Source: an uncultured Desulfobacterales bacterium
GTDB lineage: Bacteria > Desulfobacterota > Desulfobacteria > Desulfobacterales > JAFDCJ01
Assembly: GCA_945787595.1 (NCBI GenBank)
Contig: CALZJV010000722.1
Location: 1-8,559, forward strand
Length of the DNA: 8,559 bases
Direction: 5' to 3'
The notes under the pieces were generated by a model. It saw nothing but the letters and a program-made list of their open reading frames with translations. It searched no databases and was not told the origin of the DNA. Positions 1,920 to 8,086 of this stretch are shown piece after piece; the first letter of the stretch is position 1, and the number at the start of each line of letters is the position of its first letter. A program made the translations under genes and the position numbers.

Positions 1920-2309
1920 ATGCCGAAAGAAATCCTGATAGTGGATGATGAACCCAGTATCGTCGTGCCCATCCAGTTTCTGATGGAGCAACAGGGCTAC
2001 ACTGTAATGGTGGCTGAAAATGGCGAAAGTGCCCTGGACATCATTTATAAATATAAGCCGGACCTCATATTACTCGACATCATGCTTCCCAGAATTGACG
2101 GATATGAGGTTTGTGAAATCGTCCGTTTAGATCCCAGGTACAGGGATATCAAAATTATTTTCCTAACCGCCAAAGGTCGTGAAGTGGAAATCGCCAAAGG
2201 TTTGGCACTGGGCGCCGATGCTTATATTACCAAACCCTTCTCGAATACCGAGCTGGTCTCCAAAGTCAAAGAACTTTTAGCCATTACCCATGAAACTGCC
2301 GAGGAGTAA
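1920..2309 (+). CDS. Stand-alone response regulator receiver (CheY/Spo0F-like) protein
   Basis: A 129-residue single REC domain with no output domain. The acidic pair D9-D10 (ILIVDDEPS), the phospho-acceptor D53 (LILLDIMLPRIDG), T83 (FLTAKG) and K105 (ITKPF) are all present, so the domain should bind Mg2+ and accept phosphate from a histidine kinase. A Shine-Dalgarno-like GGTGGTGA (1903-1910) lies 9 nt before the ATG. Its last 20 nt overlap the start of the HAMP-PAS gene, which suggests co-translation. Without an output domain it must act by protein contact or as a phosphate relay. Possible partners are the adjacent pseudokinase-exonuclease and the intact kinase encoded at 5066-5929; the choice between them is inference. 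Confidence 0.93.
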   Translation: MPKEILIVDDEPSIVVPIQFLMEQQGYTVMVAENGESALDIIYKYKPDLILLDIMLPRIDGYEVCEIVRLDPRYRDIKIIFLTAKGREVEIAKGLALGADAYITKPFSNTELVSKVKELLAITHETAEE

Positions 2310-3054
2310 ATTCTGGGGAGCTGTCGGCCTTTCCTTCGTGTCCCTGATCATCATCCTCACCATTTCCGCTGTCTGGTTTAAGCGTCAACTGACATCTGAT
2401 GAACTAAACTTAATTACCCATCTTTTGCGGCAGCTTATTGGCCCGCTCGTCATCATTAGTTTGCTACTGGCGGCGGTCTGCGTCTGGGCCGTGGAAGCTA
2501 TATTCCGTAATTATATCAGACCTATTCACAAAATTGCGGAAAAAGTATCATTGATCAACACCACAAATCCGTCCTACCGAATTGCGGGCCAAGGTGCAGG
2601 GGAAATCCGCCTGCTTTGCGAGCGCATCAACGAAGCCGCCCAGCGGCACGAAACCCTCGCAAAGCATGTGGAGGCCAAAGTCCAGATGGCCAAATCAGAA
2701 TTTGAACAGGAAAAAAATTCTCTGGCGGCTATTGTGACCGAGTTGCCTGAAGGTGTTCTGATCTGCAACCCCGACGGCCGGATTCTGCTGTATAACAACC
2801 GCGCCAAACAACTACTGACCGGTAGACCGGACAGGGATCAGGCCATTTCAGGTTCTCATGAATCCGAGCGTTATATCGGCCTGGGACGTTCCATCTTCGG
2901 AATCATCGATAAAAACCTCTTGGCGCATGTTATCGATCAAATCAACGGAAAACTGCAACAAAATGATCCCCAGGCAGTCTCTTATTTCGTGGTGCCGGGT
3001 ACGGATGATCGGCTGCTTCGGGTAGAGGCTGTCCCTGTTTTAACAGTGATTTGA
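2290..3054 (+). CDS. Membrane HAMP-PAS sensor module (N-terminal part of a broken sensor-exonuclease gene)
   Basis: A 254-residue N-terminal half of what looks like one larger sensor protein. Two hydrophobic helices (about 9-30 and 49-72) flank a very short loop, so there is almost no periplasmic sensor. They are followed by a HAMP-like linker (about 73-125, starting near YIRPIHKIAEKV), a charged coiled-coil stretch to about 147, and a PAS domain from about 145 (LPEGVLICNPDGRILLYNN). The PAS ends at the strand RLLRVEAVPVLT and then hits a stop. The usual last PAS strand (a GFVL..DIT-type segment) is missing. The next ORF resumes directly in the kinase-like helix, one frame over. The ATG overlaps the receiver gene by 20 nt, with no strong ribosome site of its own, which fits translational coupling. 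Domain calls are by pattern only. Confidence 0.8.
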   Translation: MKLPRSKFWGAVGLSFVSLIIILTISAVWFKRQLTSDELNLITHLLRQLIGPLVIISLLLAAVCVWAVEAIFRNYIRPIHKIAEKVSLINTTNPSYRIAGQGAGEIRLLCERINEAAQRHETLAKHVEAKVQMAKSEFEQEKNSLAAIVTELPEGVLICNPDGRILLYNNRAKQLLTGRPDRDQAISGSHESERYIGLGRSIFGIIDKNLLAHVIDQINGKLQQNDPQAVSYFVVPGTDDRLLRVEAVPVLTVI

Positions 3055-4397
3055 ATCTGGCTCTGCAAGCAGTTACCAGAGGATTCCGGGCATCGCTGGC
3101 CGGTATTCGCTCTGCCATTGAAACCATCATAGAGTATCCGAATATGGACATCGATCAGCTCGAAGAATTCAGAAAAATCATCCATAGAGAATCCATCAGC
3201 ATGGGTGAGCTTTTGGAGAGCAACTTGAGCTTTGATGCCAAAATAGGACTCAATCAGTGGCCGTTGACCACCATGTCCGCCGAAAATCTGACGGATCTGC
3301 TTTCGACCAGATCCCTCGAAAAGCTTCAGGTACAGATTCGGATGGAAGATATCGTTGATCCCCTTTGGGTAAAGGTTGACAGCTATTCCTTTCTGCTGGT
3401 GCTGCTTTTTCTAATCGACAAATTAAAGACCTTGATCGGCATCGAGGAGCTTACCTGCAGATTGACCGACCTGGATTGGTATGTCGGACTTGATTTGCTG
3501 TGGCCGGGCCCGCCAATAAAAATTGAAACCGTGCGCGAGTGGGAACAGGCGCCGTTGGTGTTCGAGCAGGAAGGATTGTCCCTGACACTTCGGGAAATAA
3601 TTGACCATCTCGGCTCCGATATTGGATCCTATGGATCCAAACGCTTGAAGGGCACATCATATTTGCGACTCTTTTTACCGGTTGTCGAGACTTTTGAACC
3701 CGAAGAGATCAGACGCCTGACTATTTTGCCGGAAAGCCGGCCGGAGTACTATGATTTTGATTTATTTAGCCGGTCGGAGCAGGTGGCGGAATTGGAGAAC
3801 CGGCCTTTGACGGAACTGACCTATACGGTATTTGATATGGAAACCACCGGCCTGAATCCTTCCGAAGGAGATGAAATTTTATCTATCGGCGCCATGCGAA
3901 TTGTTAACTGCCGCTTGTTGCGCGAAGAACGATTTGAACAGCTGGTTGACCCGTTGCGGAAAATCCCCTGGGAATCTGTGCAGATACACGGTATCCATCC
4001 GGAGATGCTCCTCGGACAACCGACCATCGACAAGGTCCTTCCCGGATTTCAAAAATTCTTAGAGAATACCATTCTTGTGGCTCACAATGCGGCCTTTGAC
4101 ATGCGTTTTTTGCAGATGAAGGAAGAACAAACCGCGGTCAAGATCATCAATCCGGTATTGGATACCCTGCTGCTGTCCGCTGTGGTGCATCCGTCGCACT
4201 CAAACCATGACCTGGAGGCGATCGCACAACGCCTGGGAGTCCGCATCCTAGGCCGTCATACCGCTATTGGGGATGCACTGGTTACCGCTGAACTATTTCT
4301 AAAATTGCTGCCGCTTCTGGCGCACAATGGTATCTATACCTTGAAGGATGCCCTGGCCGCCTCCCAAAAAACGTATTATGCGCGGATTAAATTCTGA
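3051..4397 (+). CDS. Degenerate histidine-kinase core fused to DEDDh 3'-5' exonuclease
   Basis: 448 codons from a TTG that overlaps the preceding stop (TTGA, 3051-3054). No ribosome site is seen, so this is probably the distal half of the HAMP-PAS gene rather than an independent gene. Residues about 5-60 look like a HisKA dimerisation helix (FRASLAGIR aligns with LRTPLTAIR), but the His position is R10. Residues about 106-211 follow the outline of a HATPase: the N-box-like VLLFLIDKLK has F120 and K124 where Asn is expected, the G1-like WPGPPI lacks the Asp, the G2-like GLSL is at 175-178, and the end GTSYLRLFLPV is typical. A DnaQ-type exonuclease follows at about 255-425: ExoI FDMETTGL (D262, E264), ExoII HNAAFD (D350), ExoIII H403-x4-D408. 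All four metal ligands and the general-base His are present. Likely a DNA or RNA exonuclease under sensory control; substrate unknown. Confidence 0.88.
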   Translation: MNLALQAVTRGFRASLAGIRSAIETIIEYPNMDIDQLEEFRKIIHRESISMGELLESNLSFDAKIGLNQWPLTTMSAENLTDLLSTRSLEKLQVQIRMEDIVDPLWVKVDSYSFLLVLLFLIDKLKTLIGIEELTCRLTDLDWYVGLDLLWPGPPIKIETVREWEQAPLVFEQEGLSLTLREIIDHLGSDIGSYGSKRLKGTSYLRLFLPVVETFEPEEIRRLTILPESRPEYYDFDLFSRSEQVAELENRPLTELTYTVFDMETTGLNPSEGDEILSIGAMRIVNCRLLREERFEQLVDPLRKIPWESVQIHGIHPEMLLGQPTIDKVLPGFQKFLENTILVAHNAAFDMRFLQMKEEQTAVKIINPVLDTLLLSAVVHPSHSNHDLEAIAQRLGVRILGRHTAIGDALVTAELFLKLLPLLAHNGIYTLKDALAASQKTYYARIKF

Positions 4398-4475
4398 CCT
4401 ACTGTTAGGTTTCGGGCTAAAGCAGGTATTAGGTGTCGGGTGTCAGGAGAGAATAGGTTTCGGGTGTCAGGTGTC

Positions 4476-4483
4476 AGGAGGGA
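4476..4483 (+). promoter_or_regulatory. Strong Shine-Dalgarno deciding the GTG start of the four-helix-bundle gene
   Basis: AGGAGGGA lies 4 nt before the in-frame GTG at 4488. It forms where the flanking GTGTCAGG repeat ends, so the repeat unit itself supplies most of the ribosome site. This favours 4488 over the upstream in-frame GTG at 4440, whose leader codons are only translated repeat. Confidence 0.6.
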
Positions 4484-4487
4484 TGTA

Positions 4488-4967
4488 GTGGCAGCTAAGA
4501 ATTTTTTGGAGGTTGAGGACCTTGAGGTCTACAGAAAGTTGTGTCGGTTGCACATTGATGTCTGCGACTTGACGCATGGATGGCCGAAGGAAGAGAAATA
4601 TGAATTGGGCAGCCAGGCAAGGCGCTCCTCAAACAGTGCACCTGCCCAGTTGGCCGAGAAAAATGATGACCGGCATATTCGCAACAAGATTGAGGGTGTG
4701 AATCGCGCCAGAGGTGAAGCTGCTGAGACAATTCATCACTTGTTCATGGCGAAACTCAAAGGTTACACCACGGGAAAGGCATTTCGAGAATTTCGGGATC
4801 GTTACAACGAGTGCATTCGCATGCTGAATGGATTGGAGAAGACATTAGAGCGCAAGGTTCCGGAACGAGAACGTCGCTGGCAGGTAGCAGAGGAATCGGC
4901 AGAGTACAGCTTAAACGATAAAGCCCACTCATCTGGTTGGCCCATTCCTTCAAAAATCGAAGCCTGA
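4488..4967 (+). CDS. Four-helix bundle protein (23S rRNA intervening-sequence type)
   Basis: 159 residues. Residues about 5-120 match the IVS-encoded / four-helix-bundle family: the entry motif VEDLEVYRKL, a mid motif SAPAQLAEK (about 50-58) equivalent to the family's S-[IV]-P-x-N-[IL]-A-E, and a closing LNGLEKTL (about 113-120). A charged tail of about 40 residues follows that is not part of the usual fold. Members occur inside 23S rRNA insertions, and the fold is shared with Avd of diversity-generating retroelements; their function is poorly known, with nucleic-acid binding suggested. It lies 90 nt after the exonuclease gene, same strand, and is flanked by inverted repeats absent from the neighbouring genes, which suggests a passenger rather than a member of the sensor operon. 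Start chosen at GTG 4488 from the AGGAGGGA site; an in-frame GTG at 4440 is the alternative. Confidence 0.82.
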   Translation: MAAKNFLEVEDLEVYRKLCRLHIDVCDLTHGWPKEEKYELGSQARRSSNSAPAQLAEKNDDRHIRNKIEGVNRARGEAAETIHHLFMAKLKGYTTGKAFREFRDRYNECIRMLNGLEKTLERKVPERERRWQVAEESAEYSLNDKAHSSGWPIPSKIEA

Positions 4968-5065: not shown

Positions 5066-5965
5066 CTAATGCCCGCTCTCGGCCCGATTTACCGGCAGTG
5101 AAAATGAGAACCTGGCGCCTCTGCCGGGTTCACTTTCGACCCAAATTCGGCCGTGGTGAAAATCGACAATGCGCTTGGTGATCGTTAAACCGATACCGGT
5201 TCCGGCAGGGCGACCCTGGGTTGGATTTTTGACCTGGTGAAATGGCTGGAATATTTTGCCCAGATCTTTAGGATTGATTCCGATGCCATTGTCCTGTACC
5301 TCGACGATCAGCTGATTGTCTGAGGATCGCAGACGAACGGCAATCATCCCACGGTCGGGATCACAGAATTTTACGGCGTTGGAAATGATATTCACCATGA
5401 CCTGAATAAGCCGGTCGCGATCGCCGGACACCCGGGGCACATCCGGGGCGAGATCCAGCGCGATGGTTATGTTTTTGTCATTAATTAGCTGAAGGGTGCT
5501 GTTGACGGCATCGTTGACGACCTCTTTTAGATCTAGTGACGAAACCGCCCAATCCATTTGGGCCGATTCGATTTTTTCGTAATCTAGGATCTGGCTGACC
5601 AGCCGGATCAGCCGATCGCTTTCTTTGATAATGATACCAGCAAAATTCTCGAGCTGGACCGGGTTGATGTTCGGGTTTGCCGAAAGAATTTCGGCCAGGG
5701 ACCGCACGGCGGTAAGGGGCGTGCGCAGTTCATGGGTAACCGTTGAGATGAAGTCATCTTTGAGCCGATCCAATTCCTGCAACCGCATATTGGCTTCCTG
5801 CAGGTCGGCCGTCGCTTTTTCCAATTCACGGCTGTGGGCAATTACCTGTCGGGTTTCATCGAGGATGTTGAGCACCTCTTCCAGACCCAGGGGTTCCTCT
5901 TTGACAACCGACGATACCATGATCCGCTGACCAGATCGGCGTCGGCCGTCATATAGTCGTCCCAA
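5066..5965 (-). CDS. Histidine-kinase half of SSS-type sensor kinase (HisKA-HATPase)
   Basis: A catalytically complete transmitter. Residues about 14-50 (RIMVSSVVKEEPLGLEEV) are the end of the STAC/linker segment found in CbrA/CrbS-like kinases. A coiled coil at about 40-68 (ATADLQEANMRLQELDRLKD) leads into HisKA with H78 in STVTHELRTPLT. The HATPase has an N-box with N192 and N196 (NIISNAVKF), G1 DNGIGI (225-230), G2 GTGIGL (255-260), and the ending GARFSFSLPV. It should autophosphorylate. The first 13 residues (MGRLYDGRRR...) are an out-of-frame reading of the symporter gene, so this is not an independent protein but the C-terminal part of the gene starting at 7794, shifted near 5930. No receiver gene follows on this strand; the stand-alone receiver at 1920 is the nearest candidate partner. 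Confidence 0.9.
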   Translation of the reverse strand: MGRLYDGRRRSGQRIMVSSVVKEEPLGLEEVLNILDETRQVIAHSRELEKATADLQEANMRLQELDRLKDDFISTVTHELRTPLTAVRSLAEILSANPNINPVQLENFAGIIIKESDRLIRLVSQILDYEKIESAQMDWAVSSLDLKEVVNDAVNSTLQLINDKNITIALDLAPDVPRVSGDRDRLIQVMVNIISNAVKFCDPDRGMIAVRLRSSDNQLIVEVQDNGIGINPKDLGKIFQPFHQVKNPTQGRPAGTGIGLTITKRIVDFHHGRIWVESEPGRGARFSFSLPVNRAESGH

Positions 5966-7794
5966 TTAATATCGTGTTTTACGGCGTAACCGGACAATTC
6001 CGCTTCGGCTTTTGTTCTACCCAGAAACCGTGCTAACAACGATTTTAAATCCGGCAAATTAACCGTGCCGCGCCGGAAAAGTGAATCTCCGGTTTCGCCG
6101 GAATACTTGAAGACATCCACAAACAGGGCGGCCTGGGTGTGTTCGATCGCCCGGGGCCGCCCTAAAATGGATACAGCGATGTAAACACTCACATTGACCA
6201 GGATGCTCCAGAATGCCGCATGGGAGATAGGGTTGAAATGCTGCAATCCGAACAGTTGATACGGTTTCAGCAGGTTAATACCGAATGGTCCCGCTGTCAC
6301 AAAATCCTGGTGGATCACGCCGACTTGGACAAGTGAGGGCAGGAAAATCGTGTAGGTCAAAACTATGAATCCGGCGATTAAACCGCTGATGGCGCCCGAG
6401 CGGGTGCCGCCTTTCCAGAATATGCCGCCGAGCAGGGCCGGTGCAAATTGCGCCACCGCCGCAAAAGACATCAGGCCGATGGAGACCAGGGCATAGAAAC
6501 CGCCAAGGTAATGGAAATAGGCATAGCCCAGCATCAGAACCAGGATGATGCTTCCCCGGCGGATGGTTAGCAGCAGGCCGGTCAGTTCGCGGCGCTGGGA
6601 AATGGCCGGGATCGGCAAGCGCAGCAACACCGGCATAACAAGATCATTGCAGATCATCGTGCTCAAGGCGATGGTTTCGACGATCACCATGCCGGTGGCG
6701 GCGGATATGCCGCCGAGATAAACGAATAAGGTCAGCAATTGCTGCCGGCCGGCCATTGGTAAAGTCAGGACAAATGTATCGGCATCGATGCTGCCGTCGG
6801 CGAACCGCAGCATGCCGCCGAGAGCAACCGGCAGCACAAAAATATTAATGGCGACCAGATACAGTGGAAAGAGCCAGATAGCCTTGTTTAAATGCTCCTC
6901 ATTAACATTCTCAACCACAATTACCTGAAATTGACGAGGCAGCAAGAGTATGGCCATCATTGACAGAAAGATATACATACTCCAATCGATGAACGTGCTG
7001 CCACCGGCATTTATTGCTAAAAGATCTTTGAAGACAGGAAAGGATCGCTCTGGTGATTCGATGGTCATACCGCTTTTAAGATCGGAAAAACTGAGCGCCT
7101 TTTCGAACAGATCGGCAAACCCATTATATAGTCCGTAAGTTACAAAAAGTCCCACCGCCAGGAAGGCGACCAGCTTTATGATCGATTCAAAGGCAATGGC
7201 CGCCACAAGCCCTTCGTGCCGTTCGGTGGCATCCAGATGACGGGTGCCGAATAAAATGGCAAAAACAGCGAGCATCAGGGCCACATAAAACGCGGTATCG
7301 CCGAGTACCGGAATATTGGCGATATTCGCCGTTACGGAGATTTCAGGGTACTGATTGATCAGAAAAAATGTGGTTGATATGGCTTTGATCTGGACGGCGA
7401 TATAGGGAATGACACCCGCGACGGCAATAATGGTAACCAAGCCGCCCAGGGTCGGACTTTTGCCGTAGCGCGAGGCAATAAAATCAGCGATGGATGTAAT
7501 GCGATGGACCTTGCTGATGCGGATGATTTTCCGCAGCACCAGCCAGCCCAGCATCGCCATCAGGGTTGGGCCGATGTAAATGGTCAGAAAGCTCAGACCG
7601 CTGTGAGTCGCCAGACCCACACTGCCGTAAAAGGTCCATGCCGTGCAGTAAACCGCCAGAGAAAGGGCGTAGATATAGGGATTGCTGATGATACTGCGGC
7701 CGGCATCTGCCCGTTTATCGCCATAATAGGCAATCACAAAAAGAAGGCCGACATAGCCGAATGAAACAAATAAGATGATTCCAGTTTTTAACAC
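5842..7794 (-). CDS. SSS-type membrane sensor half of CbrA/CrbS-like histidine kinase
   Basis: 650 codons with about a dozen hydrophobic helices of the sodium/solute symporter (SSS) fold over residues 1-545. Landmarks typical of SSS domains in sensor kinases are GTRHLDATERHEG (183-195), LLPRQFQVIVVENVNEEHL (284-302) and SFAAVAQFAPALLGGIFWKGG (443-463). A cytoplasmic STAC-like segment follows from about 552. Real homology ends at about residue 622 (MTADADLV); the last 28 residues are out of frame. The kinase continues in the overlapping minus ORF ending at 5066, giving SSS-STAC-HisKA-HATPase. Relatives sense or transport histidine, acetate or other acids. GTG start with GAGAGG 7 nt upstream, 3 nt after the small membrane gene's stop, which points to coupling. 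The nearby short-chain acyl-CoA synthetase supports a carboxylate-sensing role; that is inference. Confidence 0.92.
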   Translation of the reverse strand: MLKTGIILFVSFGYVGLLFVIAYYGDKRADAGRSIISNPYIYALSLAVYCTAWTFYGSVGLATHSGLSFLTIYIGPTLMAMLGWLVLRKIIRISKVHRITSIADFIASRYGKSPTLGGLVTIIAVAGVIPYIAVQIKAISTTFFLINQYPEISVTANIANIPVLGDTAFYVALMLAVFAILFGTRHLDATERHEGLVAAIAFESIIKLVAFLAVGLFVTYGLYNGFADLFEKALSFSDLKSGMTIESPERSFPVFKDLLAINAGGSTFIDWSMYIFLSMMAILLLPRQFQVIVVENVNEEHLNKAIWLFPLYLVAINIFVLPVALGGMLRFADGSIDADTFVLTLPMAGRQQLLTLFVYLGGISAATGMVIVETIALSTMICNDLVMPVLLRLPIPAISQRRELTGLLLTIRRGSIILVLMLGYAYFHYLGGFYALVSIGLMSFAAVAQFAPALLGGIFWKGGTRSGAISGLIAGFIVLTYTIFLPSLVQVGVIHQDFVTAGPFGINLLKPYQLFGLQHFNPISHAAFWSILVNVSVYIAVSILGRPRAIEHTQAALFVDVFKYSGETGDSLFRRGTVNLPDLKSLLARFLGRTKAEAELSGYAVKHDINWDDYMTADADLVSGSWYRRLSKRNPWVWKRCSTSSMKPDR

Positions 7795-7797
7795 TTA

Positions 7798-8036
7798 TCA
7801 ACCTCTCGCGTCATCGGAATCATACTTGTGTTCATTCGAACGGAACATGGTCGCCAGGGCCGTGAGACCGATCAGCAGACACCAGGCACCGAAAATGTAC
7901 ACAAGCAACAACGGCAAGCCGAATATCGGGATTTCCAAATTAAAAAGAGAAAGGATAGGATCGGATAGTTGAATAGGACACAGCCGAGTAGAAAAAGGGC
8001 GACCAGGCGTTTGTTTAGTTTGCTTTCACGCATCAT
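7798..8036 (-). pseudogene. Small two-helix membrane protein upstream of SSS kinase, frameshifted
   Basis: Reading the minus strand from ATG at 8036 gives MMRESKLNKRLVALFLLG, then NYPILSFLF. The frame then changes at a T run (AAAAA on + at 7942-7946), and the neighbouring frame continues NLEIPIFGLPLLLVYIFG and ends FRSNEHKYDSDDARG at TGA 7800-7798. Joining the frames by one inserted or two deleted bases gives about 79 residues with two hydrophobic helices and charged ends. This is the plan of the small proteins coded just before SSS permeases and SSS kinases (DUF485/DUF3311-like, or CbrX next to CbrA). As written, the first frame stops early. Its stop lies 3 nt before the sensor's GTG. Likely a membrane partner or a coupling leader for the sensor. 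The start is uncertain because no strong ribosome site precedes it. Confidence 0.62.
7802..7807 (-). promoter_or_regulatory. Ribosome-binding site for the SSS sensor GTG start
   Basis: GAGAGG on the minus strand, 7 nt before the GTG at 7794 and embedded in the last codons of the small membrane gene. It supports GTG 7794 as the start and makes translation of the sensor dependent on, or at least adjacent to, that of the small protein. Confidence 0.6.
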
Positions 8037-8086
8037 CGATCGTTTTTCTTGCAGGGGTTAAGATCGAGTTTAGGACAAACACTGCT

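Follow-up and report, generated by a model that had tools for sequence, protein, structure and literature searches.

Two-component systems usually end in DNA-binding response regulators or second-messenger enzymes. In eukaryotes, RNase L and Ire1 carry a sensor, a kinase or pseudokinase module and a nuclease on a single chain; their kinase and nuclease folds are unrelated to those described here, and the likeness is one of analogy only. The pseudo-histidine kinase NifL regulates other two-component proteins, and DivL of Caulobacter has, to our knowledge, no effector enzyme. According to the available text of the DivL study (PMC4211667), this protein has lost catalysis and yet reads a phosphorylated single-domain receiver, DivK~P, through its normal docking face; R553A is one of four mutants in which DivK~P binding was 8-15-fold weaker. 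Additionally, the exonuclease PP_0353 of Pseudomonas putida, a putative enzyme with an RNase_T match, belongs to an operon to which ErdR, from the CrbS/R-like MxtR/ErdR system, binds, as described in the accessible part of its report (PMC9927547). The same part of the report states that loss of PP_0353 delayed growth on pyruvate and not on acetate, and its authors speculate on mRNA decay and call the mechanism unclear. PP_0353 resembles the family described below in that an RNase_T-family exonuclease is connected with an SLC5/STAC kinase system as well as with growth on carboxylates; a kinase-like part goes unmentioned in the portion of the text available, and the two were compared by description only. 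In excerpts of the respective papers, CrbS is a hybrid kinase (PMC5715377) and its partner belongs to the LuxR family (PMC9100948).

At the level of sequence and predicted fold, the intact form of the gene studied here was shown to encode a membrane-anchored receptor-nuclease that consists of two transmembrane helices, a HAMP-like/coiled-coil segment, a PAS domain, a dead DHp-CA histidine-kinase core, an RPEYYDFDL linker and a putative DEDDh exonuclease. Among the papers listed in literature searches that took in few subscription journals, none described a histidine kinase-exonuclease fusion of this kind. The best 25 NCBIfam matches per protein included no curated model of the fusion, and a search of solved structures by sequence (9 distinct sequences, E 1e-5) revealed no match beyond the exonuclease. 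The sequences are already in databases, and the system itself is new as far as we searched.

In the window, by which we mean the whole 8,559-nucleotide stretch of DNA that was analysed, the fusion gene is present in two pieces on the forward strand. Piece 1 (2290-3054, +) encodes the two membrane helices, the HAMP-like/coiled-coil segment and a PAS domain without its C-terminal part, and piece 2 (3051-4397, +) encodes the DHp-CA pseudokinase, the linker and the exonuclease. A tblastn comparison with the intact relative P0003 revealed that its residues 251 and 274 join at window position 3042. With loci L001 and L002 as references, we found a 67-nt deletion at 3042/3043 that takes out the end of the PAS domain and shifts the frame, and the TTG at 3051 is therefore probably no evolved start. 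The best relatives of the fusion protein were Desulfobacterota proteins, so that this phylum is the most likely origin of the window; the ten best-scoring ones were 90-92% identical, and eight of them are single ORFs of 724-726 amino acids. The other two are shorter, namely P0002 (480 amino acids) and P0009 (463 amino acids). P0002 has no start-codon residue at its beginning, lies on a 2015-base contig and was probably cut by the contig end. P0009, which is 90% identical and lies on a 4115-base contig, has its starting Met within the last part of the PAS domain; it could be another damaged copy or an incomplete gene call. Given the eight unbroken relatives and the 67-nt deletion in the window, the two ORFs do not represent a natural pair, and a reading as two genuine genes, the second starting at TTG, was rejected. 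The fusion gene in the window is disrupted and probably non-functional as sequenced.

An earlier note made from the letters alone had described a two-helix membrane anchor, a PAS domain and an exonuclease with all its motifs intact, and each of these parts was recovered. Hydrophobic stretches were present at residues about 6-32 and 41-76, in agreement with two membrane helices. The PAS domain gave a weak, partial match in the window (Pfam PAS_8, E 0.0015, below its cut-off) and a clearer one at residues 151-270 of P0003 (PAS_4, E 1.2e-6), whose AlphaFold2 model was used for the layout of the N-terminal part. A Pfam match to HAMP was obtained in the distant member L086 only. The exonuclease domain (3828-4298, +) matched Pfam RNase_T (PF00929) over second-ORF residues 260-416 with an E-value of 2.4e-36, and D262, E264, D350, H403 and D408 stood where they had been claimed. 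These five DEDDh catalytic residues of the putative 3'-5' exonuclease were kept in all 133 aligned family sequences. The domain was nearest to the PolC and epsilon exonucleases, and many of the listed relatives are automatically annotated as DNA polymerase III subunit epsilon, others as exonuclease domain-containing protein. Between the CA domain and the exonuclease, the linker motif SRPEYYDFDLF (3735-3767, +; second-ORF residues 229-239) is also strongly conserved; across the 133 rows, R was found in 124, P in 126, D in 130 and F in 131 at P0003 columns 506, 507, 511 and 512, respectively.

The kinase-like core begins with a DHp-like helical hairpin (3051-3257, +; second-ORF residues 1-69), followed by a CA (HATPase-like) domain (3267-3683, +; residues 73-211). 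The note had placed R10 (3078-3080) at the position of the phospho-accepting His and F120 and K124 at both N-box Asn, and had read the G1 box as WPGPPI, which starts at residue 151. A profile alignment with catalytically intact SLC5-kinases confirmed these assignments: R286, F396, K400 and W427 of P0003 fell on the phospho-His, both N-box Asn and the G1 Asp, and, as the numbering of P0003 runs 276 residues ahead of that of the second ORF, they correspond to R10, F120, K124 and W151. An HMM-HMM comparison of the type proposed in the note upheld the fold. The family profile matched the intact SLC5-kinases of the same loci at 99.2% (hhalign, E 7.1e-20, 215 columns), whereas four controls (DHp against CA, CA against DHp, and the exonuclease and TM-PAS parts against the histidine kinase) gave 0.2-0.7%, by which a chance resemblance to histidine kinases was rejected. 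The DHp part compared with DHp alone gave an E-value of 2.1e-14. The AlphaFold2 model of second-ORF residues 1-213 from the window had a mean pLDDT of 87, and the DivL structure 4q20 was one of the fold matches obtained for the family.

A survey of homologues for loss of the His, likewise proposed in the note, was carried out on a 133-sequence alignment made up of 7 listed proteins, the 80 first-scan loci and 46 further loci; it includes near-duplicates, such as P0003 and L001, and is gapped at the His column in six rows. His was found in none of the 127 sequences with a residue there. The column instead contained E in 94, R in 10, D in 9 and other residues in 14, with neither His nor Tyr among them. 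The first N-box Asn was present in 0 of 130 sequences and the second in 3 of 129; Asp was absent from the G1 position in all 129, where W was found in 120. A locally mutated active kinase was therefore rejected, as the His is kept in 0/127. As far as these sequences were sampled, kinase chemistry is absent throughout and the nuclease residues are fully kept, which is the opposite of single-copy decay.

Three residues after the His position, the family carries an Arg (R in 119 and K in 5, that is, R/K in 124 of 127) that matches R553 of DivL. The family and the DivL/DivK~P pair share a histidine-kinase fold without kinase activity, a PAS input, a stand-alone receiver partner and this retained Arg. 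They differ in that DivL has a Tyr at the His position, as given in the available text (PMC4211667), where the nuclease family mostly has E, R or D, and in that the family carries a C-terminal exonuclease and its receiver binding is a prediction. By analogy, the family may work like DivL but does not belong to the DivL type, with no Tyr in 127 sequences and with its fused exonuclease.

Directly before the fusion gene lies a stand-alone receiver gene (1920-2309, +; Pfam Response_reg, E 1.4e-29), which overlaps the following ORF, from 2290, by 20 nt. The upstream receiver to which the note had drawn attention proved to be a conserved neighbour: it was found directly upstream on the same strand in 79 of the 80 first-scan loci, which are the best 80 of 489 and belong mostly to Rhodocyclales and relatives. 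In the receivers of these best 80 of 489 loci, the acidic pair, the phospho-Asp53, the Lys and the Thr/Ser were each kept in 79/79. Across all 145 loci, the receiver was upstream in 116 of the 131 with a frame of at least 600 amino acids, compared with none of the 14 shorter ones. Upon removal of near-identical loci (9 of the 145, 5 with and 4 without a receiver), the counts became 111/124 for long and 0/12 for short forms; of near-identical copies the one with more partners was retained at first, and an unbiased choice led to the same counts. One of the 12 short forms, L169, has only 82 bp upstream, so 11 could be tested for an upstream receiver. When loci were instead classed by a DHp HMM, a receiver was present in 105 of 111 with a detected DHp and in 6 of 25 without; these six have long frames, in which the DHp has probably diverged too far for the profile to detect. 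In a second, more distant set, it was upstream in 32/40 loci with the dead core versus 0/6 without. The adjacent receiver was absent from 13 of the 124 long loci, among which L089 and L090 have almost no upstream sequence and some others (L136, L179) have no detected DHp-CA. On the tree, the association between receiver and long frame reflects about five changes, too few for significance, and independent pairs gave a median p of 0.5, which is not significant. Covariation between receiver and DHp specificity positions was likewise without signal, as random sets scored as high in 0.39 and 0.12 of cases; the positive control, receiver against live kinase, gave 0.60 and was signal-free as well, so the comparison lacked power in these loci.

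An SLC5-type transporter-histidine kinase gene (5066-7794, −) is present in the window as two ORFs, 5842-7794 and 5066-5965. Such a kinase was found nearby in 75 of the best 80 of 489 loci, on the same strand upstream of the receiver in 74 of these 75 and downstream in L003. In the kinases of these best 80 loci, the His, both N-box Asn and the G1 Asp were kept in 77/77 (76 ORFs and that of the window). Of the second, more distant set, 22 of 40 loci with the dead core and 0 of 6 without it carried an SLC5-type gene within the fetched stretch. As evident from the match of L004's kinase to the CbrA SLC5-STAC structure 10ed_A (E 2.5e-72) and to many histidine kinases, the neighbouring kinase is of the same kind as CrbS/MxtR and CbrA. 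The 10ED entry is described as CbrXA SLC5-STAC in the available part of PMC13022988. For the transporter part, a Pfam search gave no transporter family match, and NCBIfam returned nothing for L004 and a weak TIGR03648 match, below cut-off, for the window. The loci differ from CrbS/R in that the SLC5-kinase has no fused receiver (the 76 ORFs carry at most 35 residues outside the window's histidine-kinase columns) and is accompanied by a stand-alone receiver and a nuclease. From the gene order and the intact active sites, we infer that the SLC5-kinase of the window is the kinase for the stand-alone receiver. The window's SLC5-kinase gene also contains a second gap of about 15 codons at 5926, clean and out-of-frame, as judged against L004 and L070 (53-60% identity), both of which align across the two ORFs as a single protein.

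The fusion with the dead core was found in loci of Desulfobacterota, Chloroflexi and Proteobacteria. A family member spanning the dead core was present in 7 of 148 genomes in the phylum of G001 (Desulfobacterota, judged by the title of L002). Profile matches at E 1e-40, some of them to the exonuclease only, were obtained in 44 of 299 genomes in the phylum of G003 (Pseudomonadota, judged by the title of L010) and in 3 of 101 in that of G004 (Chloroflexota, judged by that of L004); each of the three samples includes the genome used as its centre. Shorter members were also observed. L166, L168, L170, L172 and L175-L177 have no detected DHp-CA and keep the RPxxYDFDL-like linker and the exonuclease, with a weak PAS match in L166 and L168. 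In the latter two, a receiver gene is present a few kb away, as is the beginning of an SLC5-type gene, and the receiver is therefore retained there without the dead core. The closely related L127 and L128 (L178 is the same place as L127) have lost the DHp and kept the CA domain, and neither a receiver nor an SLC5-kinase was found in their fetched stretch. In L059, from Aromatoleum toluvorans, the long form is followed, some 3 kb further downstream and beyond a sodium:solute symporter gene, by a gene for a 208-residue exonuclease (13108-13731, +).

A dead sensor kinase fused to a putative nuclease, usually beside live kinase and receiver genes, points to a possible signalling route, so far unstudied, with a nuclease in place of a gene switch at its end. 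We propose that the SLC5-transporter kinase would sense a small carboxylate or its transport and would phosphorylate the stand-alone receiver, a step suggested by the gene order and intact active sites. Once phosphorylated, the receiver would dock on the dead core at the DHp surface that has been kept, much as DivL is bound by DivK~P; this step follows the DivL analogy, and the retention of the H-box Arg was counted in its favour. A change in the DHp-CA dimer, together with PAS input, would pass through the linker to switch the exonuclease, as the conserved fusion and linker suggest. The targets would perhaps be RNA or DNA near the membrane, and the outcome would be a fast, non-transcriptional output for a carboxylate-sensing system; the carboxylate connection is drawn from the ligase neighbour described below, the SLC5 kinase type and PP_0353. 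By sequence and analogy, this overall explanation could equally well hold or fail in our judgement. The broader view, in which widespread receptor-nucleases let a transporter-coupled kinase act through a free receiver on a dead histidine kinase-exonuclease, so that two-component signalling ends in nucleic-acid degradation as a post-transcriptional arm of carboxylate sensing, is put forward more tentatively. If true, the control of a nuclease by receiver phosphorylation through a pseudo-histidine kinase would constitute a novel class of output, dead histidine kinases would be seen as signal readers carrying their own effector, and proteins labelled DNA polymerase III epsilon would gain a testable role. 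The receptor-nuclease reading might likewise shed light on why loss of PP_0353 affects growth on pyruvate.

In a rival view, the dead core is a mere dimerising, mechanical spacer, the nuclease responds solely to PAS and membrane input, and the receiver serves another purpose, for instance by draining phosphate or as a freely diffusing partner for the SLC5-kinase. This view gains from the existence of TM-PAS-linker-exonuclease forms without DHp-CA, L166 and L168, in which the receiver stands apart from the nuclease gene; the upstream receiver in 111/124 long versus 0/12 short forms (not significant by independent pairs) and the H-box Arg that was retained despite the loss of kinase chemistry argue against it, and we regard it as rather unlikely. 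Signal flow could also run in reverse, such that the dead kinase binds the receiver or the SLC5-kinase, acts as a co-receptor or sequesters its partner, and in this way tunes phosphorylation, with the nuclease as a separate function on the same chain. Pseudo-histidine-kinase regulators of two-component proteins exist, as the available DivL text (PMC4211667) attests, and the gene neighbourhood is equally compatible with such a role. However, exonuclease residues kept in 133/133 and the highly conserved linker between CA and exonuclease suggest that the kinase-like and nuclease parts cooperate, which leaves reverse flow improbable. The protein might also be a common exonuclease of DNA repair or proofreading that carries a functionless kinase relic, which would accord with the epsilon annotation of many listed relatives and with the nearness of the domain to PolC and epsilon; this is nevertheless very improbable, as the relic is kept in Desulfobacterota, Chloroflexi and Proteobacteria loci with specific conserved residues and a receiver neighbour.

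A further question concerns the window and does not compete with these readings of the family: the split fusion gene and the damaged SLC5-kinase gene might belong to a cluster that is in fact intact and was altered by errors in sequencing or assembly. Clean out-of-frame gaps in two neighbouring genes, 67 nt at 3042 and about 15 codons at 5926, favour an artefact, although gaps this large are not what single-base errors typically produce. We consider an artefact a serious possibility, only slightly less probable than genuine damage.

The remaining genes of the window were also inspected. An acetate/propionate-CoA ligase-like gene (2-1576, +), whose 5' end lies beyond the window, matched NCBIfam PRK10524 with an E-value of 1.1e-186 and 622 bits; the cut-off is 955, and the lower score presumably arises because the gene is cut by the window edge. 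Downstream of the fusion gene, a 23S_rRNA_IVP-type (PF05635) four-helix-bundle gene (4440-4967, +) is flanked by a 22-nt inverted repeat, AGGTGTCGGGTGTCAGGAGAGA, at 4431-4452/4977-4998 (95% complementary), and the gene with its repeat might form a small unit that is mobile or carried by repeats. A small membrane-protein gene at about 7858-8045 (−) is present in two frames, matched by L168 at 7965-7870 and 8045-7944, and may also be frameshifted; a gene of the same kind precedes the SLC5-type gene in L166 and L168. We also observed a 24-nt perfect inverted repeat at 8138-8161/8241-8264, in the gap preceding the last gene of the window, and AT-rich inverted repeats at 1596-1650/1759-1813 that are 71% complementary.
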